Assembly (NCBI GenBank): GCA_963924555.1
Contig: OZ004581.1
Span: forward strand, 8,533,338-8,597,337
Reading direction: 5' to 3'
DNA from: Crambe crambe
Lineage: Eukaryota; Porifera; Demospongiae; Poecilosclerida; Crambeidae
DNA: 64,000 nucleotides
In this document: positions 12,798 to 58,731 of the stretch, piece after piece
Position numbering within the stretch: position 1 is the first letter of the stretch
How the letters are laid out: each line of letters starts with the position of its first letter
Program-made: the position numbers and the translations under genes
The notes under the pieces: model-generated
What the model was told of the DNA's origin: nothing
The model's input: the letters and a program-made list of their open reading frames with translations, nothing else
Databases searched by the model: none

Positions 12798-12846
12798 CTT
12801 GCTTCAAACTCTCCATGGCAATGACCTCAAGTTCACTAGTAGTAAT
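12798..12846 (-). CDS. Predicted 49-nt internal exon of the Roc-COR gene
   Basis: On the minus strand a T-rich tract ending TTGGTAG is followed by 49 open bases (ITTSELEVIAMESLKQ plus one G), then a weak GTAGCC donor. The acceptor side is homologous to the end of the array unit (CGTATTTTGAT-ATTAAT), so the exon directly abuts the array. It enters in phase 0, matching the end of the first exon at 36,951. It leaves one base, exactly what the last exon at 3,424 needs to make GAG. The phase agreement on both sides is the main support. The weak donor and lack of RNA data are the caveats. Confidence 0.55.
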
Positions 12847-14232
12847 CTACCAACGAAATAAATAAATATATAATTAATATCAAAATACGACAGTGAAGGT
12901 ACGACAGGGTAAGAAAATAGACAGCATGTAAGTAACAATGTAAAGAGTGAGTAAGTTCAGAATAACTTACCCCCTGAAAGAATGAAATTAATCATCAAAA
13001 TACGACAGTGAAGGTACGAAAGGGTAAGAAAATTGACAGCATGTAAGTAACAATATAAAGAGTGAGTACGTTTGGAATAACTTACCTTCTGAAGAAATAA
13101 AAATAGGCATCAAAATACGAGAGTGAAGGTACGACAGGGTAAGAGAATAGACAGCATGTAAGTAACAATGCAGAGAGTGAGTACATTAAGAATAACTTGC
13201 CTCCTGAAGGTATAAATTTAGGCATCAAAATACGACGGTGAGGGTAAGAGAATAGACAGCATGTAAGTAACAATGTAAAGAGTGAGTACGTTCAGAATAA
13301 CTTACCAACTGAAATTAATACGACAGTGAAGGTACGACAGGGTAAGAGAATAGACAGCATGTAAGTAATAATGTAAAGAGTGAGTACGTTCAGAATAACT
13401 TACCCACTAAAGCAATGAAATTAATCATGAAAATATGACAGTGAAGGTACGACAGGGTAAGAGAATAGACAGCATGTAAGTAACAATGTAAAGAGTGAGT
13501 ATGTTCAGAATAACTTACCCACTAAAGCAATGAAATTAATCATCAAAATACGACAGTGAAGGTACGACAGGGTAAGAGAATAGACAGCATGTAAGTAACA
13601 ATGCAGAGAGTGAGTACATTCAGAATAACTTGCCTCCTGAAGGTATAAATTTAGGCATCAAAATACGACGGTAAGGGTAAGAGAATAGACAGCATGTAAG
13701 TAACAATGTAAAGAATGAGTACGTTCAGAATAACTTACCAACTGAAATTAATACGACAGTGAAGGTACGACAGGGTAAGAGAATAGACAGCATGTAAGTA
13801 ATAATGTAAAGAGTGAGTACGTTCAGAACAACTTACCTCCTGAAGGAATGAAATTAAGCATCAAAATATGACAGTGAAGGTACGACAGGGTAAGAAAATA
13901 GACAGCATGTAAGTAACAATGTAAAGAGTGAGTATGTTCAGAATAACTTACCCACTAAAGGAATGAAATTAATCATGAAAATATGACAGTGAAGGTACGA
14001 CAGGGTAAGAGAATAGACAGCATGTAAGTAACAATGTAAAGAGTGAGTATGTTCAGAATAATTTACCTGCTGAAGGAATGAAATTAAGCATCAAAATATG
14101 ACAGTGAAGGTAAGACAGGGTAAGAGAATAGACAGCATGTAAGTAACAATGCAGAGAGTGAATCAGTTCTGAATAACTTACTTGCTGTAGGAATGAAATT
14201 AAGCATTGAAATACGACAGTGAAGGTACGACA

Positions 14233-16500
14233 GGATAAGAGAATAGACAGCATGTAAGTAACAATGCAGAGAGTGAGTACGTTCAGAATAACTTACCTCC
14301 TGAAGGAATGAAATTGAGCATCAAAATACGACAGTGAAGGTACAGCAGGGTAAGAGAATAGACAGTATGTAAGTAACAATGCAGAGAGTGAGTGAGTTCA
14401 GAATAACTTACTCGCTGAAGGAATGAAATTAAGCATCAAAATACGACAGTGAAGGTAAGAGAATAGACAGCATGTAAGTAACAATGCAGAGAGTGAGTAC
14501 ATTCAGAATAACTTACCTCCTGAAGGAATGAAATTAATCATCAAAATACGACAGTGAAGGTACGACAGGGTAAGAGAATAGACAGTATGTAAGTAACAAT
14601 GTAAAGAGTGAGTACATTCAGAATAACTTACTTCCTAAAGGAATAAAATTAGGTATCAAAATACGACAGTGAAGGTACGACAGGGTAAGAGAATAGACAG
14701 CATGTAATTGACAATGCAGAGAGTGAGTCAGTTCAGAATAACTTACCCGCTGAAGGAATTAAATTAAGCATCAAAAGACGACAGTGAAGGTATGGCAGGG
14801 TAAGAGAATAGACAGCATGTAAGTAACAATGCAGAGAGTGAGTATGTTCAAAATAACTTACCTTCTGAAGGAATGAAATTAAGCATCAAAATATGACAGT
14901 GAAGGTAAGACAGGGTAAGAGAATAGACAGCATGTAAGTAACAATGCAGAGAGTGAATCAGTTCTGAATAACTTACTTGCTGTAGGAATGAAATTAAGCA
15001 TTGAAATACGACAGTGAAGGTACGACAGGATAAGAGAATAGACAGCATGTAAGTAACAATGCAGAGAGTGAGTACGTTCAGAATAACTTACCTCCTGAAG
15101 GAATGAAATTGAGCATCAAAATACGACAGTGAAGGTACAACAGGGTAAGAGAATAGACAGCATGTAAGTAACAATGCAGAGAGTGAGTGAGTTCAGAATA
15201 ACTTACTCGCTGAAGGAATGAAATTAAGCATCAAAATACGACAGTGAAGGTAAGAGAATAGACAGCATGTAAGTAACAATGCAGAGAGTGAGTACATTCA
15301 GAATAACTTACCTCCTGAAGGAATGAAATTAAGCATCAAAATACGAGAGTGAAGGTACAACAGGGTAAGAGAATAGACAGCATGTAAGTAACAATGCAGA
15401 GAGTGAGTATGTTCAGAATAACTTACCTCCTGAAGGAATGAAATTGAGCATCAAAATACGACAGTGAAGGTACAGCAGGGTAAGAAAATAGACAGCATGT
15501 AAGTAACAATGCAGAGAGTGAGTCAGTTCAGAATAACTTACTCGCTGAAGGAATGAAATTAAGCATCAAAATAAGACAGTGAAGGTAAGAGAATAGACAG
15601 CATGTAAGTAATAATGCAGAGAGTGAGTACATTCAGAATAACTTACCTCCTGAAGGAATGAAATTAAGAATCAAATACGAGAGTGAAGGTACGACAGGGT
15701 AAGAGAATAGACAGCATGTAAGTAACAATGCAGAGAGTGAGTACGTTCAAAATAACTTACCTGCTGAAGGAATGAAATTAATCATCAAAATACGACAGTG
15801 AAGGTACAACAGGGTAAGAGAATAGACAGCATGTAATTGACAATGCAGAGAGTGAGTCAGTTCAGAATCACTTACCCGCTGAAGGAATTAAATTAAGCAT
15901 CAAAAGATGACAGTGAAGGTATGGCAGGGTAAGAGAATAGACAGCATGTAAGTAACAATGCAGAGAGTGAATCAGTTCTGAATAACTTACTTGCTGTAGG
16001 AATGAAATTAAGCATTGAAATACGACAGTGAAGGTACGACAGGATAAGAGAATATTACAGCATGTAAGTAACAATGCAGAGAGTGAGTGAGTTCAGAATA
16101 ACTTACTCGCTGAAGGAATGAAATTAAGCATCAAAATACGACAGTGAAGGTAAGAGAATAGACAGCATGTAAGTAACAATACAGAGAGTGAGTACATTCA
16201 GAATAACTTACCTCCTGAAGGAATGAAATTAAGCATCAAAATACGAGAGTGAAGGTACAACAGGGTAAGAGAATAGACAGCATGTAAGTAACAATGCAGA
16301 GAGTGAGTATGTTCAGAATAACTTACCTCCTGAAGAAATGAAATTGAGCATCAAAATACGACAGTGAAGGTACAGCAGGGTAAGAAAATAGACAGCATGT
16401 AAGTAACAATGCAGAGAGTTAGTCAGTTCAGAATAACTTACTCGCTGAAGGAATGAAATTAAGCATCAAAATAAGACAGTGAAGGTAAGAGAATAGACAG
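14233..16500. repeat. Higher-order block of the array, copy 1
   Basis: The order of unit variants here recurs almost exactly at about 25,765-28,150. The offset is 11,532-11,533, rising to 11,648 after one extra 115-bp unit in the second copy. A following stretch, 17,240-17,760, recurs near 28,200-28,740 at offset 10,968. These are segmental duplications within the array. Confidence 0.8.
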
Positions 16501-19500
16501 CATGTAAGTAATAATGCAGAGAGTGAGTACATTCAGAATAACTTACCTCCTGAAGGAATGAAATTAAGCATCAAAATACAAGAGTGAAGGTACGACAGGG
16601 TAAGAGAATAGACAGCATGTAAGTAACAATGCAGAGAGTGAGTACGTTCAGAATAACTTACCCGCTGAAGGAATGAAATTAATCATCAAAATACGACAGT
16701 GAAGGTACAACAGGGTAAGAGAATAGACAGCATGTAATTGACAATGCAGAGAGTGAGTCAGTTCAGAATAACTTACCCGCTGAAGGAATTAAATTAAGCA
16801 TCAAAAGACGACAGTGAAGGTATGGCAGGGTAAGAGAATAGACAGCATGTAAGTAACAATGCAGAGAGTGAATCAGTTCTGAATAACTTACTTGCTGTAG
16901 GAATGAAATTAAGCATTGAAATACAACAGTGAAGGTACGACAGGATAAGAGAATAGACAACATGTAAGTAACAATGCAGATAGTGAGTACGTTCAGAATA
17001 ACTTACCTCCTGAAGGAATAAAATTGAGCATCAAAATACGACAGTGAAGGTACAGCAGGGTAAGAGAATAGACAGCATGTAAGTAACAATGCAGAGAGTG
17101 AGTCAGTTCAGAATAACTTACTCGCTGAAGGAATGAAATTAAGCATCAAAATACGACAGTGAAGGTAAGAGAATAGACAGCATGTAAGTAACAATGCAGA
17201 GAGTGAGTATGTTCAGAATAACTTACCCGCTGAAGGAACGAAATTAATCATCAAAATACGACAGTGAAGGTACGACAGGGTAAGAGAATAGACAGCATGG
17301 AATTGACAATGCAGAGAGTGAGTCAGTTCAGAATAACTTACCCGCTGAAGGAATTAAATTAAGCATCAAAAGACGACAGTGAAGGTATGGCAGGGTAAGA
17401 GAATAGACAGCATGTAAGTAACAATGCAGAGAGTATGTTCAAAATAACTTACATTCTGAAGGAATGAAATTAAGCATCAAAATACGACAGTGAAGGTAAG
17501 ACAGGGTAAGAGAATAGACAGCATGTAAGTAACAATGCAGAGAGTGAATCAGTTCTGAATAACTTACTTGCTGTAGGAATGAAATTAAGCATTGAAATAC
17601 GACAGTGAAGGTACGACAGGATAAGAGAATAGACAGCATATAAGTAACAATGCAGATAGTGAGTACGTTCAGAGTAACTTACCTCCTGAAGGAATAAAAT
17701 TGAGCATCAAAATACGACAGTGAAGGTACGACAGGGTAAGAGAATAGACAGCATGTAATTAACAATGCAGAGAGTGAGTCAGTTCAGAATAACTTACTCG
17801 CTGAAGGAATGAAATTAAGCATCAAAATACGACAGTGAAGGTAAGAGAATAGACAGCATGTAAGTAACAATGCAGAGAGTGAGTACATTCAGAATAACTT
17901 ACCTCCTGAAGGAATGAAATTGAGCATCAAAATACGACAGTGAAGGTACGACAGGGTAAGAGAATAGACAGCATGTAAGTAACAATGCAGAGAGTGAGTA
18001 CATTCCGAATAACTTGCCTCCTGAAGGTATAAATTTAGGCATCAAAATACGACAGTGAGGGTAAGAGAATAGACAGCATGTAAGTAACAATGTAAAGAGT
18101 GAGTACGTTCAGAATAACTTACCAACTGAAATTAATACGACAGTGAAGGTACGACAGGGTAAGAGAATAGACAGCATGTAAGTAATAATGTAAAGAGTGA
18201 GTACGTTCAGAACAACTTACCTCCTGAAGGAATGAAATTAAGCATCAAAATATGACAGTGAAGGTACGACAGGGTAAGAAAATAGACAGCATGTAAGTAA
18301 CAATGTAAAGAGTGAGTATGTTAAGAATAACTTACCCACTAAAGGAATGAAATTAATCATGAAAATAATTATGACAGTGAAGGTACGACAGGGTAAGAGA
18401 ATAGACAGCATATAAGTAACAATGTAAAGAGTGATTACATTCAGAATAACTTACCAACTGAAATTAATACGACAGTGAAGGTACGACAAGGTAAGAGAAT
18501 AGACAGCATGTAAGTAACAATGTAAAGAGTATGTTAAGAATAATTTACCTGCTGAAGGAATGAAATTAATCATCAAAATACGACAGTGAAAGACAGGGTA
18601 AGAGAATAGACAGCATGTAAGTAACAATGTAAAGAGAATGTTAAGAATAACTTACCCGCTGAAGGAATGAAATTAATCATCAAAATACGACAGTGAAGGT
18701 ACGACAGGGTAAGAGAATAGACAGCATGTAAGTAATAATGTAAAGAGTGAGTACATTCAGAATAACTTACCAACTGAAATTAATACGATAGTGAAGGTAC
18801 GACAGGGTAAGAGAATAGACAGCATGTAAATACAAATTGTAAAGAGTGAGTACATTCAGAATGACTTACTTCCTAAAGGAATAAAATTAGGTATCAAAAT
18901 ACGACAGTGAAGGTACAACAGGGTAAGAGAATAAACAGCATGTAAGTAACAATGCAGAGAGTGAGTATGTTCAGAATAACTTACCGACTGAAGAAATAAA
19001 ATTAAGCATCAAAATATAACAGTGAAGGTATGGCAGGGTAAGAGAATAGACAGCATGTAACTGACAATGCAGAGAGTGAGTCAGTTCAGAATAACTTACC
19101 CGCTGAAGGAATTAAATTAAGCATCAAAAGACGACAGTGAAGGTATGGCAGGGTAAGAGAATAGACAGCATGTAAGTAACAATGCAGAGAGTATGTTAAA
19201 AAAAACTTACCTTCTGAAGGAATGAAATTAAGCATCAAAATACGACAGTGAAGGTAAGACAGGGTAAGAGAATAGACAGTATGTAAGTAACAATGTAAAG
19301 AGTATGTTAAGAATAACTTACCCGCTGAAGGAATGAAATTAAGCATCAAAATACAACAGTGAAGGTACGGCAGGGTAAGAGAATAGACAGCATGTAAGTA
19401 ACAATGCAGAGAGTGAGTCTGTACAGAATAACTTACTTTCTGAAGGAATGAAATTAAGCATCGAAATACGACAGTGAAGGTACAACAGGGTAAGATAATA

Positions 19501-22500
19501 AACAGCATGTAAGTAACAATGCAGAGAGTGAGTATGTTCAGAATAACTTACTGACTGAAGAAATGAAATTAAGCATCAAAATATAACAGTGAAGGTACAG
19601 CAGGGTAAGAGAATAGACAGCATGTAAGTAACAATGCAGAGAGTGAGTACGTTCAGAATAACTTACCTCCTGAAGGAATGGAATTAAGCATCAAAATACA
19701 ACGGTGAAGGTACGGCAGGGTAAGAGAATAGACAGCATGTAAGTAACAATGCAGAGAGTGAGTACGTTCAGAAAAACTTACCTCCATAAGGAATGAAATT
19801 AAGCATCAAAACACGACAGTGAAGGTAAGACAGGGTAAGAGAATAGACAGCATGTAAGTAACAATGCAGAGAGTGAGAACGTTCAGAATAACTTACATCC
19901 TGAAGGAATGAAATTAAGCATCAAAATACGACAGTGAAGGTAAGACAGGGTAAGAGAATAGACAGCATGTAAGTAACAATGCAGAGAGTGAGTACGTTCA
20001 GAAAAACTTACCTCCTTAAGGAATGAAATTAAGCATCAAAATACGACAGTGAAGGTAAGACAGGGTAAGAGAATAGACAGCATGTAAGTAACAATGCAGA
20101 GAGTGAGTATGTTCAGAATAACTTACCTCCTGAAGGAATGAAATTGAGCATCAAAATACGACAGTGAAGGTACAGCAGGGTAAGAAAATAGACAGCATGT
20201 AAGTAACAATGCAGAGAGTGAGTCAGTTCAGAATAACTTACTCGCTGAAGGAATGAAATTAAGCATCAAAATAAGACAGTGAAGGTAAGAGAATAGACAG
20301 CATGTAAGTAATAATGCAGAGAGTGAGTACATTCAGAATAACTTACCTCCTGAAGGAATGAAATTAAGAATCAAAATACGAGAGTGAAGGTACGACAGGG
20401 TAAGAGAAAAGACAGCATGTAAGTAACAAAATGCAGAGAGTGAGTTTATTCAGAATAACTTACCCGCTGAAGGAATAAATTAAGAATCAGTGACAGTATG
20501 ACAGGGTAAGAGAATAGACAGTATGTGAGTAACAATGTAGAGTGTGAGTTGGTTCAGAATAACTTACCCCCTGAAGGCATCAAAATACGACAGGGTAAGA
20601 GAATAGACAGCATGTAAGTAACAATGCAGAGAGTGAGTCAGATCAGAATAACTTACATCCTGAAGGAATGAAATTAAGCATCAAAATACGACAGTGAAGG
20701 TAAGACAGGGTAAGAGAATAGACAGCATGTAAGTTACAATGCAGAGAGTGAGTCTGTACATAATAACTTACTTTCTGAAGGAATGAAATTAAGCATAGAA
20801 ATACGACGACAGGGTAAGAGAATAGACAGCATGTAAGTAACAATGCAGAGAGTGAGTACGTTCAGAATAACTTACCTCCTGAAGGAATGAAATTAAGCAT
20901 CAAAATACGACGACAGCATAAGAGAATAGACAGCATGTAAGTAACAATGCAGAGAGTGAGTACGTTCAGAATAAATTACCTCCTGAAGGAATAAAATTAA
21001 GCATCAAAATACGACAGTGAAGGTAAGACAGGGTAAGAGAATAGACAGCATGTAAGTAACAATGCAGAGAGTGAGTATGTTCAGAATAACTTACCGACTG
21101 AAGGAATGAAATTAAGCATCAAAATACGACGACAGGGTAAGAGAATAGACAGCATGTAAGTAACAATGCAGAGAGTGAGTACGTTCAGAATAACTTACCT
21201 CCTGAAGGAATGAAATTAAGCATCAAAATACGACAGTGAAGGTAAGACAGGGTAAGAGAATAGACAGCAGTAAGTAACAATGCAGAGAGTGAGTACGTTC
21301 AGAATAACTTACCGACTGAAGGAATGAAATTAAGCATCAAAATACGACAGTAAAGGTAAGACAGGGTAAGAGAAAAGACAGCATGTAAGTAACAAAATGC
21401 AGAGAGTGAGTTTATTCAGAATAACTTACCCGCTGAAGGAATAAATTAAGAATCAGTGACAGTATGACAGGGTAAGAGAATAGACAGTATGTGAGTAACA
21501 ATGTAGAGTGTGAGTTGGTTCAGAATAACTTACCCCCTGAAGGCATCAAAATACGACAGGGTAAGAGAATAGACAGCATGTAAGTAATAATGTAAAGAGT
21601 GAGTACGTTCAGAATAACTTACCCACTAAAGCAATGAAATTAATCATGAAAATATGACAGTGAAGGTACGACAGGGTAAGAGAATAGACAGCATGTAAGT
21701 AACAATGCAGAGAGTGAGTACGTTCAGAATAACTTACTAACTAAAGGAATGAAATTAAGCATCAAAATACGACAGTGAAGGTAAGACAGGGTAAGAGAAT
21801 AGACAGCATGTAAGTAACAATGCAGAGAGTGAGTACGTTCAGAATAACTTACCTCCTGAAGGAATAAAATTAAGCATCAAAATACGACGACAGGGTAAGA
21901 GCATGTAAGTAACAATGCAGAGAGTGAGTACGTTTAGAATAACTTACCTTCTGAAGGAATGAAATTAAGCATCAAAATACGACGACAGGGTAAGAGCATG
22001 TAAGTAACAATGCAGAGAGTGAGTACGTTCAGAATAACTTACCAACTGAAGGAATGAAATTAAGCATCAAAATACGACAGTGAAGGTACGGCAGGGTAAA
22101 AGAATAGACAGCATGTAAGTAACAATGCAGAGAGTGAGTACGTTCAGAATAACTTACCAACTGAAGGAATGAAATTAAGCATCAAAATACGACAGTGAAG
22201 GTAAGACAGGGTAAGAGAATAGACAGCATGTAAGTAACAATGCAGAGAGTGAGTACGTTCAGAATAACTTACCGACTGAAGGAATGAAATTAAGCATCAA
22301 AATACGACAGTAAAGGTAAGACAGGGTAAGAGAAAAGACAGCATGTAAGTAACAAAATGCAGAGAGTGAGTTTATTCAGAATAACTTACCCGCTGAAGGA
22401 ATAAATTAAGCATCAGTGACAGTATGACAGGGTAAGAGAATAGACAGTATGTGAGTAACAATGTAGAGTGTGAGTTGGTTCAGAATAACTTACCCCCTGA

Positions 22501-25500
22501 AGGCATCAAAATACGACAGGGTAAGAGAATAGACAGCATGTAAGTAACAATGCAGAGAGTGAGTCAGATCAGAATAACTTACATCCTGAAGGAATGAAAT
22601 TAAGCATCAAAATACGACAGTGAAGGTAAGACAGGGTAAGAGAATAGACAGCATGTAAGTTACAATGCAGAGAGTGAGTCTGTACATAATAACTTACTTT
22701 CTGAAGGAATGAAATTAAGCATAGAAATACGACGACAGGGTAAGAGAATAGACAGCATGTAAGTAACAATGCAGAGAGTGAGTACGTTCAGAATAACTTA
22801 CCTCCTGAAGGAATGAAATTAAGCATCAAAATACGACGACAGCATAAGAGAATAGACAGCATGTAAGTAACAATGCAGAGAGTGAGTACGTTCAGAATAA
22901 ATTACCTCCTGAAGGAATAAAATTAAGCATCAAAATACGACAGTGAAGGTAAGACAGGGTAAGAGAATAGACAGCATGTAAGTAACAATGCAGAGAGTGA
23001 GTATGTTCAGAATAACTTACCGACTGAAGGAATGAAATTAAGCATCAAAATACGACGACAGGGTAAGAGAATAGACAGCATGTAAGTAACAATGCAGAGA
23101 GTGAGTACGTTCAGAATAACTTACCTCCTGAAGGAATGAAATTAAGCATCAAAATACGACAGTGAAGGTAAGACAGGGTAAGAGAATAGACAGCGTGTAA
23201 GTAACAATGCAGAGTGAGTCTGTACAGATTAACTTACTTTCTGAAGGAATGAAATTAAGCATAGAAATACGACGACAGGGTAAGAGAATAGACAGCATGT
23301 AAGTAACAATGCAGAGAGTGAGTACGTTCAGAATAACTTACCTCCTGAAGGAATGAAATTAAGCATCAAAATACGACGACAGCATAAGAGAATAGACAGC
23401 ATGTAAGTAACAATGCAGAGAGTGAGTATGTTCAGAATAACTTACCTCCTGAAGGAATAAAATTAAGCATCAAAATACGACGACAGGGTAAGAGCATGTA
23501 AGTAACAATGCAGAGAGTGAGTACGTTTAGAATAACTTACCTTCTGAAGGAATGAAATTAAGCATCAAAATACGACGACAGGGTAAGAGCATGTAAGTAA
23601 CAATGCAGAGAGTGAATACGTTCAGAATAACTTACCAACTGAAGGAATGAAATTAAGCATCAAAATGCGACAGTGAAGGTAAGACAGGGTAAGAGAATAG
23701 ACAGCATGTAAGTAACAATGCAGAGAGTGAGTACGTTCAGAATAACTTACCTCCTGAAGGAATAAAATTAAGCATCAAAATACGACAGTGAAGGTAGGAC
23801 AGGGTAAGAGAATAGACAGCATGTAAGTAATAATGCAGAGAGTGAGTCAGTTCAGAATAACTTACCTCCTGAAGGAATAAAATTAAGCATCAAAATACGA
23901 CAGTGAAGGTAGGACAGGGTAAGAGAATAGACAGCATGTAAGTAATAATGCAGAGAGTGAGTACGTTCAGAATAACTTACCTTCTGAAGGAATGAAATTA
24001 AGCATCAAAATACGACGACAGGGTAAGAGCATGTAAGTAACAATGCAGAGAGTGAGTACGTTCAGAATAACGTACCAACTGAAGGAATGAAATTAAGCAT
24101 CAAAATACGACAGTGAACGTACGGCAGGGTAAAAGAATAGACAGCATGTAAGTAACAATGCAGAGAGTGAGTACGTTCAGAATAACTTACCAACTGAAGG
24201 AATGAAATTAAGCATCAAAATACGACGACAGGGTAAGAGAATAGACAGCATGTAAGTAACAATGCAGAGAGTGAGTACGTTCAGAATAACTTACCAACTG
24301 AAGGAAGGAAATTAAGCATCAAAATACAACAGTGAAGTTACGACAGGGTAAGAAAATAGACAGCATGTAAGTAACAATGCAGAGAGTGTGTCTGTACAGA
24401 ATAACTTACTCGCTGAAGGAATAAAATTAAGCATCAAAATACAACAGTGAAGGTACGACAGGGTAAGAGAATAGACAGCATGTAAGTAACAATGCAGAGA
24501 GTGAGTCTGTACAAAATAACTTACTCGCTGAAGGAATAAAATTAAGCATCGAAATACGATAGTGAAGGTACGACAGGGTAAAAGAATAGACAGCATGTAA
24601 GTAACAATGCAGAGAGTGAGTACGTTCAGAATAACTTACCAACTGAAGGAATGAAATTAAGCATCAAAATACGACGACAGGGTAAGAGAATAGACAGCAT
24701 GTAAGTAACAATGCAGAGAGTGAGTACGTTCAGAATAACTTACCGACTGAAGGAATGAAATTAAGCATCAAAATACGACAGTAAAGGTAAGACAGGGTAA
24801 GAGAATAGACAGCATGTAAGTAACAATGCAGAGAGTGAGTACGTTCAGAATAACTTACCGACTGAAGGAATGAAATTAAGCATCAAAATACGACAGTAAA
24901 GGTAAGACAGGGTAAGAGAAAAGACAGCATGTAAGTAACAAAATGCAGAGAGTGAGTTTATTCAGAATAACTTACCCGCTGAAGGAATAAATTAAGAATC
25001 AGTGACAGTATGACAGGGTAAGAGAATAGACAGTATGTGAGTAACAATGTAGAGTGTGAGTTGGTTCAGAATAACTTACCCCCTGAAGGCATCAAAATAC
25101 GACAGGGTAAGAGAATAGACAGCATGTAAGTAACAATGCAGAGAGTGAGTCAGTTCAGAATAACTTACATCCTGAAGGAATGAAATTAAGCATCAAAATA
25201 CGACAGTGAAGGTAAGACAGGGTAAGAGAATAGACAGCATGTAAGTTACAATGCAGAGAGTGAGTCTGTACAGAATAACTTACTTTCTGAAGGAATGAAA
25301 TTAAGCATAGAAATACGACGACAGGGTAAGAGAATAGACAGCATGTAAGTAACAATGCAGAGAGTGAGTACGTTCAGAATAACTTACTAACTGAAGGAAT
25401 GAAATTAAGCATCAAAATACGACAGTGAAGGTAAGACAGGGTAAGAGAATAGACAGCATGTAAGTAACAATGCAGAGAGTGAGTACGTTCAGAATAACTT

Positions 25501-25764
25501 ACAAACTGAAATTAAGCATCAAAATACGACAGTGAAGGTAAGACAGGGTAAGAGAATAGACAGCATGTAAGTAACGATGCAGAGAGTGAGTACATTCAGA
25601 ATAACTTACCAACTGAAGGAATGAAATTAAGCATCACAATACGACAGTGAAGGTACGGCAGGGTAAGAGAATAGACAGCATGTAAGTAACAATGCAGAGA
25701 GTGAGTCAGTTCAGAATAACTTACTCGCTGAAGGAATGAAATTAAGCATCAAAATACAACGACA

Positions 25765-28150
25765 GGATAAGAGAATAGACAGCATGTAAGTAACAATGCA
25801 GAGAGTGAGTACGTTCAGAATAACTTACCTCCTGAAGGAATGAAATTGAGCATCAAAATACGACAGTGAAGGTACAGCAGGGTAAGAGAATAGACAGTAT
25901 GTAAGTAACAATGCAGAGAGTGAGTGAGTTCAGAATAACTTACTCGCTGAAGGAATGAAATTAAGCATCAAAATACGACAGTGAAGGTAAGAGAATAGAC
26001 AGCATGTAAGTAACAATGCAGAGAGTGAGTACATTCAGAATAACTTACCTCCTGAAGGAATGAAATTAATCATCAAAATACGACAGTGAAGGTACGACAG
26101 GGTAAGAGAATAGACAGTATGTAAGTAACAATGTAAAGAGTGAGTACATTCAGAATAACTTACTTCCTAAAGGAATAAAATTAGGTATCAAAATACGACA
26201 GTGAAGGTACGACAGGGTAAGAGAATAGACAGCATGTAATTGACAATGCAGAGAGTGAGTCAGTTCAGAATAACTTACCCGCTGAAGGAATTAAATTAAG
26301 CATCAAAAGACGACAGTGAAGGTATGGCAGGGTAAGAGAATAGACAGCATGTAAGTAACAATGCAGAGAGTGAGTATGTTCAAAATAACTTACCTTCTGA
26401 AGGAATGAAATTAAGCATCAAAATATGACAGTGAAGGTAAGACAGGGTAAGAGAATAGACAGCATGTAAGTAACAATGCAGAGAGTGAATCAGTTCTGAA
26501 TAACTTACTTGCTGTAGGAATGAAATTAAGCATTGAAATACGACAGTGAAGGTACGACAGGATAAGAGAATAGACAGCATGTAAGTAACAATGCAGAGAG
26601 TGAGTACGTTCAGAATAACTTACCTCCTGAAGGAATGAAATTGAGCATCAAAATACGACAGTGAAGGTACAACAGGGTAAGAGAATAGACAGCATGTAAG
26701 TAACAATGCAGAGAGTGAGTGAGTTCAGAATAACTTACTCGCTGAAGGAATGAAATTAAGCATCAAAATACGACAGTGAAGGTAAGAGAATAGACAGCAT
26801 GTAAGTAACAATGCAGAGAGTGAGTACATTCAGAATAACTTACCTCCTGAAGGAATGAAATTAAGCATCAAAATACGAGAGTGAAGGTACAACAGGGTAA
26901 GAGAATAGACAGCATGTAAGTAACAATGCAGAGAGTGAGTATGTTCAGAATAACTTACCTCCTGAAGGAATGAAATTGAGCATCAAAATACGACAGTGAA
27001 GGTACAGCAGGGTAAGAAAATAGACAGCATGTAAGTAACAATGCAGAGAGTGAGTCAGTTCAGAATAACTTACTCGCTGAAGGAATGAAATTAAGCATCA
27101 AAATAAGACAGTGAAGGTAAGAGAATAGACAGCATGTAAGTAATAATGCAGAGAGTGAGTACATTCAGAATAACTTACCTCCTGAAGGAATGAAATTAAG
27201 AATCAAAATACGAGAGTGAAGGTACGACAGGGTAAGAGAATAGACAGCATGTAAGTAACAATGCAGAGAGTGAGTACGTTCAAAATAACTTACCTGCTGA
27301 AGGAATGAAATTAATCATCAAAATACGACAGTGAAGGTACAACAGGGTAAGAGAATAGACAGCATGTAATTGACAATGCAGAGAGTGAGTCAGTTCAGAA
27401 TCACTTACCCGCTGAAGGAATTAAATTAAGCATCAAAAGATGACAGTGAAGGTATGGCAGGGTAAGAGAATAGACAGCATGTAAGTAACAATGCAGAGAG
27501 TGAATCAGTTCTGAATAACTTACTTGCTGTAGGAATGAAATTAAGCATTGAAATACGACAGTGAAGGTACGACAGGATAAGAGAATATTACAGCATGTAA
27601 GTAACAATGCAGAGAGTGAGTGAGTTCAGAATAACTTACTCGCTGAAGGAATGAAATTAAGCATCAAAATACGACAGTGAAGGTAAGAGAATAGACAGCA
27701 TGTAAGTAACAATGCAGAGAGTGAGTACATTCAGAATAACTTACCTCCTGAAGGAATGAAATTAAGCATCAAAATACGAGAGTGAAGGTACAACAGGGTA
27801 AGAGAATAGACAGCATGTAAGTAACAATGCAGAGAGTGAGTATGTTCAGAATAACTTACCTCCTGAAGGAATGAAATTAAGCATCAAAATACGAGAGTGA
27901 AGGTACAACAGGGTAAGAGAATAGACAGCATGTAAGTAACAATGCAGAGAGTGAGTATGTTCAGAATAACTTACCTCCTGAAGAAATGAAATTGAGCATC
28001 AAAATACGACAGTGAAGGTACAGCAGGGTAAGAAAATAGACAGCATGTAAGTAACAATGCAGAGAGTTAGTCAGTTCAGAATAACTTACTCGCTGAAGGA
28101 ATGAAATTAAGCATCAAAATAAGACAGTGAAGGTAAGAGAATAGACAGCA
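25765..28150. repeat. Higher-order block of the array, copy 2
   Basis: Second copy of the 14,233-16,500 block. Other internal duplications: about 20,450-21,300 with 22,380-23,220 (offset 1,926), and 29,520-30,680 with 32,280-33,430 (offset about 2,756). Near-identity shows recent unequal exchange or segmental copying rather than one-unit slippage alone. Confidence 0.8.
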
Positions 28151-31100
28151 TGTAAGTAACAATGCAGAGAGTGAGTACGTTCAGAATAACTTACCCGCTG
28201 AAGGAATGAAATTAATCATCAAAATACGACAGTGAAGGTACAGCAGGGTAAGAGAATAGACAGCATGTAAGTAACAATGCAGAGAGTGAGTATGTTCAGA
28301 ATAACTTACCCGCTGAAGGAATTAAATTAAGCATCAAAAGACGACAGTGAAGGTATGGCAGGGTAAGAGAATAGACAGCATGTAAGTAACAATGCAGAGA
28401 GTATGTTCAAAATAACTTACATTCTGAAGGAATGAAATTAAGCATCAAAATACGACAGTGAAGGTAAGACAGGGTAAGAGAATAGACAGCATGTAAGTAA
28501 CAATGCAGAGAGTGAATCAGTTCTGAATAACTTACTTGCTGTAGGAATGAAATTAAGCATTGAAATACGACAGTGAAGGTACGACAGGATAAGAGAATAG
28601 ACAGCATATAAGTAACAATGCAGATAGTGAGTACGTTCAGAGTAACTTACCTCCTGAAGGAATAAAATTGAGCATCAAAATACGACAGTGAAGGTACGAC
28701 AGGGTAAGAGAATAGACAGCATGTAAGTAACAATGCAGAGAGTGAGTATATTCCGAATAACTTGCCTCCTGAAGGTATAAAATTAAGCATCAAAATACGA
28801 CGACAGGGTAAGAGCATGTAAGTAACAATGCAGAGAGTGAGTACGTTTAGAATAACTTACCTTCTGAAGGAATGAAATTAAGCATCAAAATACGACGACA
28901 GGGTAAGAGCATGTAAGTAACAATGCAGAGAGTGAGTACGTTCAGAATAACTTACCAACTGAAGGAATGAAATTAAGCATCAAAATACGACAGTGAAGGT
29001 ACGGCAGGGTAAAAGAATAGACAGCATGTAAGTAACAATGCAGAGAGTGAGTACGTTCAGAATAACTTACCAACTGAAGGAATGAAATTAAGCATCAAAA
29101 TACGACAGTGAAGGTAAGACAGGGTAAGAGAATAGACAGCATGTAAGTAACAATGCAGAGAGTGAGTACGTTCAGAATAACTTACCGACTGAAGGAATGA
29201 AATTAAGCATCAAAATACGACAGTAAAGGTAAGACAGGGTAAGAGAATAGACAGCATGTAAATAACAATGCAGAGAGTGAATATGTTCAGAATAACTTAC
29301 CTCCTGAAGGAATGAAATTAAGCATCAAAATACGACAGTGAAGGTACGGCAGGGTAAGAGAATAGACAGCATGTAAGTAACAATGCAGAGAGTGAGTATG
29401 TTCAGAATAACTTACTCGCTGAAGGAATGAAATTAAGCATCAAAATACGACGACAGGGTAAGAGAATAGACAGCATGTAAGTAACAATGCAGAGAGTGAG
29501 TACGTTCAGAATAACTTACCTTCTGAAGGAATGAAATTAAGCATCAAAACATGATCATGATAGTGAACAGGTAGGAGAATAGACAGCATGTAAGTAACAA
29601 TGCAGAGAGTGAGTACGTTCAGAATATCTTACCTCCTGAAGGAATGAAATTAAGCATCAAATACGACAGTAAAGGTACGACAGGGTAAGAGTATAGACAG
29701 CATGTAAGTAACAATGCAGAGAGTGAGTATTTTCAGAATAACTTACTTTCTGAAGGAATAAAATTAAGCATCGAAATACGACAGTGAAGGTACAACAGGG
29801 TAAGAGAATAGACAGCATGTAAGTAACCATGCAGAAAGTGAGTACGTTTAGAATAGCTTACCTCCTGAAGGAATAAAATTAAAGCATCGAATATGACAGT
29901 GACGGTACAACAGGGTAAGAGAATAGACAGCATGTAAGTAACAAAGTCAGTTCAGAATAACTTACCTCCTGAAGGAATGAAATTAAGCATCAAAATACGA
30001 CAGTGAAGGTATAACATGGTAAGAGAATAGACAGCATGTAAGTAACCATGCAGAGAGTGAGTCAGTTCAAAATAACTTACAAACTGAAGGAATCATCAAA
30101 ATACGACAGTGAAGGTACGACAGGGTAAGAGAATAGACAGCATGTAAGTAACAATGCAGAGAGTGAGTCAGTTCAGAATAACTCACCTCCTGAAGAAATG
30201 AAATTAAGCATCAACATACGACGACAGGGTAAGAGAATAGACAGCATGTAAGTAACAATGCAGAGAGTGAGTACATTCAGAATAACTTACTCGCTGAAGG
30301 AATGAAATTAAGCATCAAAATATGACGACAGGGTAAGGGAATAGACAGCATGTAAGTAACAATGCAGAGAGTGAGTACATTCAGAATAACTTACTCGCTG
30401 AAGGAATGAAATTAAGCATCAAAATACGACAGTGAAGGTAAGACAGGGTAAGAGAATAGACGGCATGTAAGTAACAATGCAGAGAGTGAGTACGTTCAGA
30501 ATAACTTACTCGCTGAAGGAATGAAATTAAGCATCAAAATACAACGACAGGGTAAGAGAATAGACAGCATGTAAGTAACAATGCAGAGAGTGAGTCAGTT
30601 CAGAATAACTCACCTCCTGAAGAAATGAAATTAAGCATCAAAATACGACGACAGGGTAAGAGAATAGACAGCATGTAAGTAACAATGCAGAGAGTGAGTC
30701 AGTTCAGAATAACTTACCCACTGAAGGAATGAAATTAAGCATCAAAATACAACAGTGAAGGTAAGACAGGGTAAGAGAATAGACAGCATGTAAGTAACAA
30801 TGCAGAGAGTGAGTACGTTCAGAATAACTTACAAACTGAAATTAAGCATCAAAATACGACAGTGAAGGTAAGACAGGGTAAGAGAATAGACAGCATGTAA
30901 GTAACGATGCAGAGAGTGAGTACATTCAGAATAACTTACCAACTGAAGGAATGAAATTAAGCATCACAATACGACAGTGAAGGTACGGCAGGGTAAGAGA
31001 ATAGACAGCATGTAAGTAACAATGCAGAGAGTGAGTCAGTTCAGAATAACTTACTCGCTGAAGGAATGAAATTAAGCATCAAAATACAACGACAGGATAA

Positions 31101-34100
31101 GAGAATAGACAGCATGTAAGTAACAATGCAGAGAGTGAGTACGTTCAGAATAACTTACCTCCTGAAGGAATGAAATTAAGCATCAAAATACGACAGTAAA
31201 GGTAAGACAGGGTAAGAGAATAGGCAGCATGTAAGTAACAATGCAGAGAGCGAGTACGTTCAGAATAACTTACCCCCTGAAGGAATGAAATTAAGCATCA
31301 AAATACAACAGTGAAGGTACGGCAGGGTAAGAGAATAGACAGCATGTAAGTAACAATGCAGAGAGTGAGTACGTTCAGAATAACTTACCTCCTTAAGGAA
31401 TGAAATTAAGAATCAAAATACAACAGTGAAGGTACGGCAGGGTAAGAGAATAGACAGCATGTAAGTAACAATGCAGAGAGTGAGTACGTTCAGAATAACT
31501 TACCTCCTGAAGAAATGAAATTAAGCATCAAGATACGACAGTGAAGGTACGGCAGGGTAAGAGAATAGACAGCATGTAAGTAACAATGCAGAAAGTGAGT
31601 ACGTTCAGAATAACTTACCTCCTGAAGGAATGAAATTAAGCATCAAAATACGACGACAGGGTAAGAGAATAGACAGCATGTAAGTAACAATGCAGAGAGA
31701 GAGTCAGTTCAGGATAACTTACTCGCTGAAGGAATGAAATTAAGCATCAAAATACAACGACAGGGTAAGAGAATAGACAGCATGTAAGTAACAATGCAGA
31801 GAGTGAGTACGTTCAGAATAACTTACCTCCTGAAGAAATGAAATTAAGCATCAAAATACAACAGTGAAGGTAAGGCAGGGTAAGAGAATAAACAGCATGT
31901 AAGTAATAATGCAGAGAGTGAGTCAGTTCAGAATAACGTACTCGCTGAAGGAATGAAATTAAGCATCAAAATACAACAGTGAAGGTACGGCAGGGTAAGA
32001 GAATAGACAGCATGTAAATAACAATGCAGAGAGTGAATATGTTCAGAATAACTTACCTCCTGAAGGAATGAAATTAAGCATCAAAATACGACAGTGAAGG
32101 TACGGCAGGGTAAGAGAATAGACAGCATGTAAGTAACAATGCAGAGAGTGAGTCAGTTCAGAATAACTTACTCGCTGAAGGAATGAAATTAAGCATCAAA
32201 ATACGACGACAGGGTAAGAGAATAGACAGCATGTAAGTAACAATGCAGAGAGTGAGTACGTTCAGAATAACTTACCTTCTGAAGGAATGAAATTAAGCAT
32301 CAAAACATGATCATGATAGTGAACAGGTAGGAGAATAGACAGCATGTAAGTAACAATGCAGAGAGTGAGTACGTTCAGAATATCTTACCTCCTGAAGGAA
32401 TGAAATTAAGCATCAAATACGACAGTAAAGGTACGACAGGGTAAGAGTATAGACAGCATGTAAGTAACAATGCAGAGAGTGAGTATTTTCAGAATAACTT
32501 ACTTTCTGAAGGAATAAAATTAAGCATCGAAATACGACAGTGAAGGTACAACAGGGTAAGAGAATAGACAGCATGTAAGTAACAATGCAGAAAGTGAGTA
32601 CGTTTAGAATAGCTTACCTCCTGAAGGAATAAAATTAAAGCATCGAATATGACAGTGACGGTACAACAGGGTAAGAGAATAGACAGCATGTAAGTAACAA
32701 AGTCAGTTCAGAATAACTTACCTCCTGAAGGAATGAAATTAAGCATCAAAATACGACAGTGAAGGTATAACATGGTAAGAGAATAGACAGCATGTAAGTA
32801 ACCATGCAGAGAGTGAGTCAGTTCAAAATAACTTACAAACTGAAGGAATCATCAAAATACGACAGTGAAGGTACGACAGGGTAAGAGAATAGACAGCATG
32901 TAAGTAACAATGCAGAGAGTGAGTCAGTTCAGAATAACTCACCTCCTGAAGAAATGAAATTAAGCATCAAAATACGACGACAGGGTAAGAGAATAGACAG
33001 CATGTAAGTAACAATGCAGAGAGTGAGTCTGTACATAATAACTTACTTTCTGAAGGAATGAAATTAAGCATCAAAATATGACGACAGGGTAAGGGAATAG
33101 ACAGCATGTAAGTAACAATGCAGAGAGTGAGTACATTCAGAATAACTTACTCGCTGAAGGAATGAAATTAAGCATCAAAATACGACAGTGAAGGTAAGAC
33201 AGGGTAAGAGAATAGACGGCATGTAAGTAACAATGCAGAGAGTGAGTACGTTCAGAATAACTTACTCGCTGAAGGAATGAAATTAAGCATCAAAATACAA
33301 CGACAGGGTAAGAGAATAGACAGCATGTAAGTAACAATGCAGAGAGTGAGTCAGTTCAGAATAACTCACCTCCTGAAGAAATGAAATTAAGCATCAAAAT
33401 ACGACGACAGGGTAAGAGAATAGACAGCATGTAAGTAACAATGCAGAGAGTGAGTGAGTTCAGAATAACTTACCTCCTGAAGGAATGAAATTAAGCATCA
33501 AAATACGACAGTTAAGGTACGGCAGGGTAAGAGAATAGACAGCATGTAAGTAACAATGCAGAGAGTGAGTACGTTCAGAATAACTTACTCGCTGAAGGAA
33601 TGAAATTAAGCATCAAAATACAACGACAGGGTAAGAGAATAGACAGCATGTAAGTAACAATGCAGAGAGTGAGTACATTCAGAATAACTTACTCGCTGAA
33701 GGAATGAAATTAAGCATCAAAATACGACAATGAAGGTACGGCAGGGTAAGAGAATAGACAGCATGTAAGTAACAATGCAGAGAGTGAGTACATTCAGAAT
33801 AACTTACTCGCTGAAGGAATGAAATTAAGCATCAAAATACAACAGTGAAGGTAAGACAGGGTAAGAGAATAGACGGCATGTAAGTAACAATGCAGAGAGT
33901 GAGTCAGTTCAGAATAACTTACTCGCTGAAGGAATGAAATTAAGCATCAAAATACGACAGTGAAGGTACGGCAGGGTAAGAGAATAGACAGCATGTAAGT
34001 AACAATGCAGAGAGCGAGTCAGTTCAGAATAACTCACCTCCTGAAGAAATGAAATTAAGCATCAAAATACGACGACAGGGTAAGAGAATAGACAGCATGT

Positions 34101-36440
34101 AAGTAACAATGCAGAGAGTGAGTGAGTTCAGAATAACTTACCTCCTGAAGGAATGAAATTAAGCATCAAAATACGACAGTTAAGGTACAGCAGGGTAAGA
34201 GAATAGACAGCATGTAAGTAACAATGCAGAGAGTGAATACGTTCAGAATAACTTACTCGCTGAAGGAATGAAATTAAGCATCAAAATACGACGACAGGGT
34301 AAGAGAATAGACAGCATGTAAGTAACAATGCAGAGAGTGAGTCAGTTCAGGATAACTTACCTTCTAAAGGAATAAAATTAAGCATCAAAATACGACAGTG
34401 AAGGTAAGACAGGGTAAGAGAATAGACAGCATGTAAGTAACAATGCTGAGAGTGAGTATGTTCAGAACAACTTACTCGCTGAAGGAATGAAATTAAGCAT
34501 CAAAATACGACAGTGAAGGTACGACAGGGTAAGAGAATAGACAGCTTGTAAGTAACAATGCAGAGAGTGAGTCAGTTCAGAATAACTTACCTCCTGAAGG
34601 AATGAAATTAAGCATCAAAATACAACAGTGAAGGTACGACAGGGTAAGAGAATAGACAGCATGTAAGTAACAATGCAGAGAGTGAGTATGTTCAGAATAA
34701 CTTACCAACTGAAGGAATGAAATTAAGCATCAAAATACGACAGTGAAGGTAAGACAGGGTAAGAGAATAGACAGCATGTAAGTAACAATGCAGAGAGTGA
34801 GTACGTTCAGAATAACTTACCTCCTGAAGGAATGAAATTAAGCATCAAAATACGACAGTGAAGGTAAGACAGGGTAAGAGAATAGACAGCATGTAAGTAA
34901 CAATGCAGAGAGTGAGTACGTTCAGAATAACTTACCGACTGAAGGAATGAAATTAAGCATCAAAATACGACAGTAAAAGTACAGCAGGGTAAGAGAACAG
35001 ACAGCATGTAAGTAACAAAATGCAGAGAGTGAGTTTATTCAGAATAACTTACCCGCTGAAGGAATAAATTAAGCATCAGTGACAGTATGACAGGGTAAGA
35101 GAATAGACAGCATGTGAGTAACAATGTAGAGTGTGAATTGGTTCAGAATAACTTACCGGCTGAAGGCATCAAAATACGACAGGGTAAGAGAATAGACAGC
35201 ATGTAAGTAACAATGCAGAGAGTGAGTACGTTCAGAATAACTTACCGACTGAAGGAATGAAATTAAGCATCAAAATACGACAGGGTAAGAAAATAGACAG
35301 CATGTAAGTAACAATGCAGAGAGTAAGTACGTTCAGAATAACTTACCAACTGAAGGAATGAAATTAAGCATCAAAATACGACAGTGAAGGTATGACAGGG
35401 TAAGAGAATAGACAGCATGTAAGTAACAATGCAGAGAGTGAGTATAACTTACCAACTGAAGGAATGAAATTAAGCATCAAAATACGACAGTGAAGGTAAG
35501 ACAGGGTAAGAGAATAGACAGCATGTAAGTAACAATGCAGAGAGTGAGTACGTTCAGAATAACTTACCGACTGAAGGAATGAAATTAAGCATCAAAATAC
35601 GACAGGGTAAGAAAATAGACAGCATGTAAGTAACAATGCAGAGAGTAAGTACGTTCAGAATAACTTACCAACTGAAGGAATGAAATTAAGCATCAAAATA
35701 CGACAGTGAAGGTATGACAGGGTAAGAGAATAGACAGCATGTAAGTAACAATGCAGAGAGTGAGTATAACTTACCAACTGAAGGAATGAAATTAAGCATC
35801 AAAATACGACAGTGAAGGTAAGACAGGGTAAGAGAATAGACAGCATGTAAGTAACAATGCAGAGAGTGAGTACGTTCAGAATAACTTACCTCCTGAAGGA
35901 ATGAAATTAAGCATCAAAATACGACAGTAAAAGTACAGCAGGGTAAGAGAACAGACAGCATGTAAGTAACAAAATGCAGAGAGTGAGTATATTCAGAATA
36001 ACTTACCTGCTGAAGGAATAAATTAAGCATCAGTGACAGTATGACAGGGTAAGAGAATAGACAGCATGTGAGTAACAATGTAGAGTGTGAGTTGGTTCAG
36101 AATAACTTACCGGCTGAAGGCATCAAAATACGACAGGGTAAGAGAATAGACAGCATGTAAGTAACAATGCAGAGAGTAAGTACTTTCAGAATAACTTACC
36201 AACTGAAGGAATGAAATTAAGCATCAAAATACGACAATGAAGGTATGACAGGGTAAGAAAATAGACAGCATGTGAGTAACAATGTAGAGTGTGAGTTGGT
36301 TCAGAATAAAGCATCAAAATACAACAATGAAGGTACGACAGGGTAAGAGAATAGACAGCATGTAAGTAATAGTGCTGAAACTTGTCAAGAATAACTCACA
36401 TCCTGAAGGATCTAAATATGTCAATGAAGGTATGACAGGG

Positions 36441-36950
36441 TAAGATAATGAGAAGTGATAAAACAATATGTTAATGAAGTATAAGTAATGACTTACCAGG
36501 AGAAGGGGTAATAAGTTCCAACATCAAATTGAGTGTGTATGGTGTGAAAGAACATGATGCCAAATATAATGTCAGTTTTGAATGACTCACCTCCTGAAAG
36601 AAAACATTTATACACATACTAACTAAAGGTCACATAATTCAGCACTTTCTAATCAATAAATATTCCAGACACAATCTTGAAACTTCCTTCCTTTTTTGGT
36701 AAAGGGTTGACAAGTGAGAATTGGCCCCACCCGGTATACCCGGTACCCATACAATACACATGGGCCACATAGGCACACTGCAGTACAGCACAAACTGCAC
36801 TTCAGGTGAGGAAGGAATGAGCTTCCAAGTCATTACCAGTGATGGGTTGCATTGGTACACCCTTTATAATCAATACTCCCCAACTAAATGAGCTGGTGTC
36901 ACACCCTAGTCCCTAGTCCCTAGCTACCTTTTTCATGTGAATGCACTCAC
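36441..36950 (-). other. Degenerate array edge and first-intron 5' part
   Basis: Diverged units continue up to the first exon. On the minus strand TTTCTTTCAG-GAG-GTGAGT is still present near 36,587-36,602, and CCTTCAG-GAT-GTGAGT near 36,394-36,406, inside otherwise non-repetitive sequence. Preservation of acceptor, triplet and donor where the rest of the unit has decayed is suggestive. From about 36,610 to 36,950 nothing else was recognised. Confidence 0.6.
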
Positions 36951-37025
36951 AAAATATGGTTCAGCTCTGCTAAAAGTAGCTTTTTTCTCTGCTTCTTCAT
37001 TCTCTTCACCTTTTTTATCACTCAT
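36951..37025 (-). CDS. Predicted first coding exon of the Roc-COR gene
   Basis: On the minus strand an ATG at 37,025 opens 25 charged codons (starting MSDKKGEENEEAEKK, ending RAEPYF). They run exactly into a GTGAGT donor in phase 0; the frame then reaches a stop within the intron. Composition and donor are those of a genuine N-terminal exon. It lies just upstream (in gene orientation) of the array, whose first unit-like acceptor is at about 36,600. Assignment to the same gene as 1,055-3,424 rests on strand, compatible phases and absence of another candidate gene between them. It could instead belong to a separate short transcript. Confidence 0.6.
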
Positions 37026-58621: not shown

Positions 58622-58688
58622 AGTATGCCACCTGTCATTTATATTATATTAGCTAGCTCCCTAAACCATGCCCGTTATTGCTATTCCC

Positions 58689-58731
<43 letters not shown>

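Follow-up and report, generated by a model that had tools for sequence, protein, structure and literature searches.

Tandem single-codon exons as a putative protein-coding segment of Roc-COR GTPase genes in the sponge Crambe crambe

What purpose could be served in a gene by some two hundred complete introns that are parted from one another by only three bases? The question is raised by a stretch of 64,000 nucleotides from the sponge Crambe crambe (GCA_963924555.1, contig OZ004581.1, positions 8,533,338 to 8,597,337 of the forward strand), referred to here as the window, in which an earlier note had described such an array between window positions 12,847 and 36,950. On the minus strand this interval is exactly the span between exon 1 and exon 2 of one gene, the window gene. 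The array and the splice anatomy of its triplets, as given in the note, stood up to analysis, whereas the open frame formed by the ordered triplets and the recurrence of the arrangement in a gene family had been missed. We consider it very likely that the array is protein-coding and that it provides, one residue per exon and by stepwise splicing, an N-terminal segment of a Roc-COR GTPase.

Array anatomy and the joined frame

The array comprises 214 units, 213 of them intact, which agrees with the count of about 210 complete introns parted by single triplets reported previously. Each unit consists of one intron and one triplet, mostly 115 bases together, and in an intact unit three bases stand between an AG acceptor and a donor with GT or GC (213 of 214 in the window). 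The donor consensus proposed earlier was reproduced, with GTAAGT in 192, GTGAGT in seven, GCAAGT in four and another GT donor in 10 of the 213 window units, and the corresponding acceptors are CAG (201), TAG (10) and AAG (2). A CTTAAT motif and a pyrimidine-rich stretch had also been reported, and we found both TTCATTCCTTCAG and a CTTAAT-like stretch conserved across units, the branch site remaining putative. The array introns therefore have the GT/GC-AG ends, polypyrimidine tract and branch-like site of U2-type spliceosomal introns. Apart from the first (357 nt) and the last (124 nt), window introns measure 86-227 nt, and the median length is 112 nt.

The window gene lies entirely on the minus strand. 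The coding part of exon 1 (36,951..37,025), delimited by its sequence, its copies elsewhere and the joined frame, begins with an ATG at 37,025, reads MSDKKGEENEEAEKKATFSRAEPYF, ends in phase 0 and is followed by the donor GTGAGT. The first single-codon exon (36,591..36,593) is GAG, encoding E, and its flanking introns of 357 and 188 nt are unlike in sequence; the second (36,400..36,402) is GAT, encoding D. From the first E at 36,593 to the last exon, GGG (G) at 12,973-12,971, the array (12,971..36,593) holds 213 usable single-codon exons that read EDLPQELLSLLSPRSELERKREERRRREERRKEFEEKEKRE...WELEWWLEKG. One further unit, with the triplet GAG at 19,782..19,784, lacks the AG, its acceptor reading TTATG, and is probably skipped, which would keep the frame. 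The last intron (12,847..12,970) ends in the acceptor TTGGTAG ahead of exon 2 (12,798..12,846; 49 nt), which encodes ITTSELEVIAMESLKQ plus the first base of the following codon and carries the donor GTAGCC. Exon 3 (1,055..3,423) was previously placed at 3,424, a start corrected here by one base; it reads ENQSGFNGADK...GLPESGKTSF...GVTTP and a stop, contains a Roc-like P-loop and part of COR-A, and its frame is stop-free to 1,055.

Exon 1 and exon 2 are thus separated by 24,104 bp with 214 introns and 213 usable three-base exons, all in phase 0. Exon 1, the 213 triplets and exons 2 and 3 join into an open frame of 1,043 codons without an internal stop, while shifting the phase by 1 or 2 in exon 1 plus 212 triplets gives 6 and 10 stops per 236 codons. 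In exon 3, Pfam recognized COR-A (PF16095, E 8.7e-9, just above its cut-off) and Roc (PF08477, E 1.1e-4, below its own cut-off), and database proteins that match the sister exon of array A6 (see below) bear both domains. The downstream part of the window gene, with COR-A following Roc, can accordingly be read as a Roc-COR GTPase. Exon 3 also contains a 90-base repeat of 2.3 copies within its coding sequence (2,791-3,001). About 25 bases 5' of the ATG, near 37,050 on the minus strand, the motif GGATCAGGTAAGA resembles an acceptor-donor junction in the 5' untranslated part, and its counterpart at array A7 is TTTTTTTGTCAGGTAAGG.

Eight arrays of this kind were read, namely A1-A6 within 8.49-8.75 Mb of C1, with A5 being the window array, plus A7 and A8. 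The exact spacing of three bases claimed for the window was found in all six arrays scanned, since for 520 of 520 donors the best acceptor lay 3 nt upstream when a weight matrix was allowed 0 to 15 nt between acceptor and donor, 31 of these acceptors scoring at or below threshold. A count over all 143 Mb of the genome gave 215 + 2,828 = 3,043 strict units TTCAG-(n)-GTAAGTTATTC at n = 3 and none at n = 2, 4 or 6, and reversed-pattern controls were also zero. No genuine zero-gap AG-GT junction was found at the 520 donors; the three matches to a zero-gap regular expression are three units whose own triplet is CAG. To avoid circularity, junctions were also counted from an anchor within the intron (bases +7 to +16), which is independent of the splice dinucleotides, and 879 of 911 anchored places have both AG and GT/GC. 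The other 32 were inspected: three are junctions lacking a dinucleotide (A2, A4 and A5), one (A8) is a 2-nt unit, one is an intact junction displaced by an inserted base, and 27 are chance occurrences or introns fused by junction loss. The same recount in A7 gave 303 intact junctions vs 298 parsed units; the parser used for A7 and A8 itself demanded AG and GT/GC, so that the counts of 882 and 881 among 883 units carrying these signals are partly built in.

In the six arrays the weight matrix missed 15 units and the regular expression missed 10, with a union of 535. Bits, stop expectation, codon choice, unit pairs, shuffles and mismatches were computed on 520 or 883 units, and the final set is 898, none of the 15 triplets added after 883 being a stop. 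A GTA match in intron 1 at the start of the six arrays and the first K of A7 were left out as false. Intron positions +9 to +40 deviate from the consensus with a median mismatch of 7%, and the triplet ranks with the unit's most variable parts (1.92, 1.91 and 1.26 bits vs mostly 0.1-0.9 around it), together with positions +16/+17 (1.64 and 1.32 bits) and -14 (1.03 bits). The +16/+17 spot, the second variable one in all arrays, is mostly GT, TG, AT or AG within ...GAAC[NN]ACTCAC and is associated with the codon of its own unit (mutual information 0.74 bits vs 0.19 ± 0.01 shuffled), probably through shared ancestry of units.

No stop codon occurs among the 898 triplets of the eight arrays read in order, nor among the 879 intron-anchored junctions. 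If the three positions are taken as independent, 109 stops would be expected in 883 triplets and 43 after collapse to 349 distinct flank-plus-codon units, although these figures serve as guides rather than strict probabilities because duplicate units share ancestry. Read on the opposite strand, the same 883 triplets contain 14 stops. Among the strict units of the whole genome, 6 of 3,043 are stops (five TAG, one TGA and no TAA), and CGA, a single C-to-T transition away from TGA, is present in 250. Three of the six stop units were inspected, the TAG units at C1:8,611,714, C1:8,636,879 and C1:8,668,447 (minus strand); each is isolated beside an apparent decayed exon, at least 6,198 bases from any other strict unit. 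The other three are at C1:8,424,771, C1:8,828,817 and C1:9,004,727. The stop-bearing units inspected thus persist outside arrays, as isolated remnants, and provide a natural control. One frame-damaged unit in A8 aside, the arrays have the open, stop-free frame of coding exons.

The choice of codons differs between the arrays and two GTPase exons. Only one of the 898 triplets ends in C; glutamate is written GAG:GAA at 217:7 in the arrays vs 32:75 in the GTPase exons, glutamine CAA:CAG at 56:7 vs 36:21, and arginine as CGA/CGG in 139/142 vs 6/54. The arrays shun CAG for glutamine, a triplet that would compete as an acceptor. Codon choice seems to bear the mark of splicing, in that it suits the amino acid as well as the splice site, and a passive satellite would not lead one to expect this. 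Taken together, the absence of stops, the phase-0 joining and the splice-shaped codon choice strongly indicate coding use of the in-frame 3-nt microexons.

A gene family with diverging arrays

Exon 1 is present in at least 37 copies in the genome, which share 74 to 100% identity and all lie on one contig, C1. The plus strand carries two of them, at 6.6-6.7 Mb, and the minus strand 35, at 8.16-9.37 Mb. The arrays range from 42 to 298 units; the longest, A7 (298 parsed units, C1:6.637-6.672 Mb), lies on the strand opposite to A1-A6, and A8 has 65 units in an examined piece that ends inside the array. Read in order, the triplets spell peptides, such as EDLLQSSSKLPPEKIRQIKSYLDGLSKE in A1, EDLPWIEPPPPLSEMDRQTLSLWRSKPQSEHHVWLLSRPPPP in A2 and EDLPQELLSLLSPRSELERKREERRRREERRKEFEEKEKRE in A5. 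A GAG exon precedes A1-A6 alike, and the start E-D-L/M is found in 6/6 arrays of 8.49-8.75 Mb, the corresponding residues being E-D-R in A7 and E followed by a damaged unit in A8.

After both A1 and A6 comes a GTG exon, which is included in the array counts, then an exon of 22 bases and finally a long Roc-COR exon. The joined sequences run for 805 and 786 codons, respectively, up to the first stop. A Roc-COR exon of about 690 codons follows A1, A3 and A6, and a different Roc-COR exon follows A2 and the array of the window gene. The A4 locus (C1:8,616,900-8,628,900) contains the array, exon 2, a coding stretch that we presume to resemble a Death domain and, after it, another short array whose exon 1 is degenerate; A4 as listed consists of two stretches, its last 17 codons belonging to this second, partly decayed downstream copy. 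Among the array matches listed (100 of 966 in one search), an exon 1 is found within about 25 kb upstream in the sense direction, except for two at 6.606 Mb. For the matches listed at 9.112-9.116 Mb, another GTPase exon lies between them and exon 1, and this array may have an exon 1 of its own that escaped detection.

Closely related copies differ in how their parts have diverged. The GTPase exons of A1 and A6 are identical at 2,065 of 2,070 bases (99.8%), their array peptides, ends apart, align scarcely better than shuffles (34 vs 26.7 ± 5.7), and their first introns differ at 21 of 298 aligned bases, plus gaps. Since the first introns diverge more than the GTPase exon, the 5' and 3' halves of these genes may have different histories. 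For A2 and A4 the units were matched one against one, with no separate check of the pairing. Over the first 35 units, differences occur at 5 of 105 codon bases, at 3 of 2,184 bases in mid-intron and at 5 of 1,750 bases at the intron edges, and 3 of 3 changed codons alter the amino acid, one of them by three bases. Codon divergence thus exceeds intron divergence in this close pair, a claim limited to the first 35 units because areas near the length difference may be misaligned; in the wider comparison, 8 of 156 codon bases and 34 of 5,754 intron bases differ.

The same tendency is visible between units in general. Among pairs of units (883 units) whose 80 flanking bases differ at one position or none, 3,913 of 6,484 carry unlike codons, and 3,106 of these 3,913 differ by two or three bases. 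As read from these comparisons, homogenisation has affected the introns but not the codons; codon divergence amid like introns would be explained by selection for diversity, by conversion between units, or by both. Block duplications of 8 to 31 units were found within A1, A5 and A7, and some blocks keep all their codons.

Splicing of the array and competing explanations

The sequence itself shows the unit anatomy, phase, stop exclusion, 3-nt spacing, splice-site conservation, family context and, in one close pair, codon divergence above that of the introns; splicing and its order, near-complete inclusion, the role of the protein and exchange between units are what we infer. Transcription would proceed through about 24 kb, and the ordinary spliceosome would take out the 214 introns one by one by intron definition, each step ligating three bases, that is, one codon, onto the growing upstream exon and regenerating a donor. 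The added triplet would become positions -3 to -1 of the next donor, resulting in a ratchet that leaves one codon per step, and removal would run in the 5'-to-3' direction, similarly to recursive splicing with a one-codon remainder. Intron definition and stepwise removal are suggested by short, uniform introns, by a donor that is GTAAGT almost throughout and by the place of the triplet at positions -3 to -1. Inside the intron, GTAAGT is a full match to U1.

The predicted product is a Roc-COR GTPase with an N-terminal segment made from single-residue exons, about 40 to 300 residues long in the copies read. As the array grows, each new unit would lengthen this segment by one residue, and single codons would be added, removed or swapped in frame through unequal exchange or conversion among units that are nearly identical. 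Such a gene might tolerate splicing errors, because a skipped three-base exon costs one residue and not the frame. As to the origin of the array, we rejected transposon-like insertion of introns at every codon boundary, which would not yield exactly 3-nt exons hundreds of times; tandem duplication of an intron-plus-codon unit does give such exons.

The strong variation of the array segment, set against the more conserved exon 1 and GTPase part, points to a design with a variable and a constant region, for example a sensor or scaffold in an expanded family of the innate type. Going further, one might picture a receptor-like variable/constant system of about 37 paralogues, in which the intron-plus-codon satellite acts as movable type: exchange would swap single residues, the N-terminal recognition segment would diversify fastest, and incomplete inclusion could add somatic variety. 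We offer this picture tentatively and would not yet rate its chances as even.

Among the other explanations, the one that survives best is an optional cassette, in which real 3-nt exons are used alternatively and one gene yields many proteins with zero to many inserted residues. This was the leading proposal of the earlier note, of which the complete introns and in-frame triplets were found and coding was indicated by the lack of stops, whereas the optional insertion of zero to many residues was not established. The array exons are 3 nt long and in phase 0, so that any subset holds the frame and exon-skipping isoforms are possible, and the near-uniform donor and acceptor signals would allow distant units to be joined. 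However, the triplets taken in order yield unbroken peptides whose start is conserved, and for this reason we favour the inclusion of most array exons, in order. The residue order of A3 and A6 also exceeds that of shuffles, though most other pairs do not, and the diversity seen in the DNA is diversity between paralogous genes. We therefore consider optional use of the cassette rather improbable, at something like one chance in a handful.

Much less survives of the idea of an unused satellite, in which an ancestral microexon with its intron expanded inside a larger intron and homogenisation carried the splice signals along. The near-identical introns, the blocks (8 to 31 units) found duplicated in each of the three arrays examined, the array lengths from 42 to 298 units and the frame-damaged unit of A8 would suit such a history. 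It predicts, however, indels and stops in the triplets, and none was found in 898 triplets, with one 2-nt unit in A8; strict units of 2, 4 or 6 nt do not exist, and the stop units inspected, as isolated remnants, illustrate how unused copies look in this genome. We regard this explanation as very improbable.

Slightly less credible still is non-coding recursive splicing or a decoy, in which ratchet points aid or delay the removal of a 24-kb intron and the triplets are free of information. Alternating AG...GT signals would be expected of it, and recursive splicing of long introns is known (PMC13149111). The sites described there join AG directly to GU, whereas 3 nt lie between them here, in 3,043 strict units. 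Non-coding triplets would be free to be TAA and TGA, yet stops number 0 of 898; few parts of the unit vary as much as the triplet, and arrays of 42 units look like those of 298. The exclusion of stops makes all three alternatives listed in the earlier note (no use, a decoy and non-coding ratcheting) unlikely. Finally, an assembly or sequencing artefact is hardly credible, for although long near-identical repeats assemble poorly and the closest paralogues could be false duplicates, the eight arrays differ in length, codons and intron variants, their downstream exons differ, and the copies of exon 1 range from 74 to 100% identity.

The protein-coding, stepwise-spliced array that we prefer has to be weighed against several observations that do not favour it. 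We found no precedent for more than 200 successive splicing steps with 3-nt exons. Outside one close pair, codon divergence about equals that of the introns or is a few times higher, and it gives no sign of purifying selection on residues; in most of the blocks duplicated within A1, A5 and A7 codons diverge about as fast as introns or faster, and synonymous changes are not favoured as they would be in coding exons. Stricter tests of stop avoidance are weak. When 33 codon types are drawn at random from the 48 that do not end in C, the three stops are all missed with p 0.026; for 31 distinct codon pairs that differ by a single base, the lack of any stop has p about 0.056. Residue order was tested against 300 shuffles in nine array pairs, which do not include the near-identical A2/A4, and the only clear case was A3/A6 (82 vs 34.7 ± 5.8, maximum 64). 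A6/A8 was borderline (59 vs 43.6 ± 7.1, maximum 71), A5/A7 did not exceed shuffles (257 vs 228.9 ± 14.2, maximum 280), the similarity of this pair being due to composition, and neither did A5/A8, A6/A7, A7/A8, A5/A6, A1/A7 or A1/A6. Helical periodicity beats shuffles only in the first 60 residues of A1, to which a duplicated block contributes, and not over the whole of A1.

Two units of A8 also belong on this side of the balance. The second, the counterpart of the D exon, reads CAG-GT-GTGAGT, with 2 nt instead of three, and a CAA unit near the end of the examined piece has the dead donor ATAAGT, which makes it one of the few dead units observed; either the damaged exons are skipped, at the cost of one residue each and with the frame kept, or this gene is in decay. 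The three-base rule is thus not absolute beyond the strict pattern, which leaves our estimate unchanged. In addition, Pfam assigned no convincing family to the array parts of four joined proteins, three of which gave no family at all, and the six protein-database matches inspected included no spliced model, all of them starting at or near the GTPase exon and therefore being uninformative about splicing.

Further details of these searches and of the peptide composition are as follows. The joined A1 protein gave weak Pfam matches, each of the 25 shown lying below its cut-off; they fall partly on the real P-loop, and we think that the remaining ones are compositional. The protein-database search gave 443 matches; of the best 120, which were listed, those at the top span about 87% of the query. 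A search of the genome with the joined A2 peptide for an intronless array copy gave no match, and an empty answer from this search proves nothing. A query in which an A1 peptide runs on into the beginning of the GTPase exon (133 residues, of which 1-77 are the array part) gave 44 genome matches. One each begins at query residues 75, 81 and 82, and the others begin later; none is to the array peptide alone, and no retrocopy was found that would prove splicing. Among the 44, 21 are further Roc-COR relatives off C1, located at C11:5.83-5.89 Mb and 7.08-7.28 Mb and on C20 and C46. Viral contigs searched with the array unit gave no match. The E/R/K/L-rich composition of the array peptides suggests helices, but periodicity is limited to the first 60 residues of A1, and a coiled coil is not claimed.

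Other elements were noted elsewhere in the window. A DDE_3 transposase frame of 318 codons (PF13358) is open at 38,294-39,250 on the minus strand. The long open frames at 55,946-59,758 (minus strand), with reverse transcriptase-like and recombinase-like motifs, presumably belong to something resembling a tyrosine-recombinase retrotransposon; Pfam gave no match for the one frame of this region that was searched. A 102-base tandem repeat of 3.5 copies (59,921-60,273) is open on the minus strand.

Significance and relation to known systems

Spliced as we read it, the window array would take the split gene to its limit, at one residue per exon and hundreds of such exons in succession, its 639 coding bases being scattered across 24 kb. 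Three-base exons would thereby be shown to serve serially within one transcript. It would offer a natural system for stepwise splicing by intron definition, show that a tandem repeat can grow within a coding region without damage to the frame, and give an expanded GTPase family a fast, frame-safe means of diversification at one-codon resolution. Standard annotation would probably miss single-codon exons, and other genomes may therefore hide such arrays. We found no report of tandem single-codon exons in the open-access literature searched, including work on microexons of sponges and Amphimedon, which was covered partly by title and the start of the abstract. The elements that make up the layout (spliceosomal introns, microexons, tandem duplication and Roc-COR GTPases) are familiar.

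The nearest relatives at the level of splicing are extremely short exons. In a 2015 paper the smallest constitutive exon known until then had 6 nt and the smallest alternative one 3 nt, and a 1-nt exon was described in Arabidopsis APC11 (PMC4674806); microexons of 1 nt and one pair of adjacent microexons are described in plants (PMC8831610). These cases show a spliceosome able to use exons of 1 to 3 nt, and GTRAGT donors are noted for them as well, but as described there they are single microexons or one adjacent pair per gene, whereas hundreds stand in tandem here. Recursive splicing resembles the proposed route in the stepwise removal of a long interval via repeated acceptor-donor points and differs in that its sites leave nothing behind (PMC13149111), whereas one codon would remain per step here. 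ROCO-type GTPases are represented by the downstream COR-A and Roc-like P-loop; the N-terminal single-codon segment, in contrast, rises above no Pfam cut-off.

Two animal gene families are built along comparable lines. The bicycle genes of aphids have many small internal exons, more than 100 microexons in megacycle genes, and form a divergent family recognised by its structure; their internal exons are in phase 2 (PMC9168663), in contrast to the homogenised 3-nt, phase-0 array exons of the window, A1 and A6. The micro-exon genes (MEGs) of Schistosoma likewise combine very small symmetrical exons with a multigene family and proposed variable products, and alternative splicing has been reported for them (PMC4350168). 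By the measure of symmetrical exons, 213 symmetrical 3-nt exons give 213 of the 1,043 codons of the window gene and the GTPase exon gives most of the rest. MEGs encode secreted parasite proteins (PMC4350168), whereas the genes described here combine a Roc-COR GTPase with one-codon exons set between near-identical tandem introns, tens to hundreds per gene.

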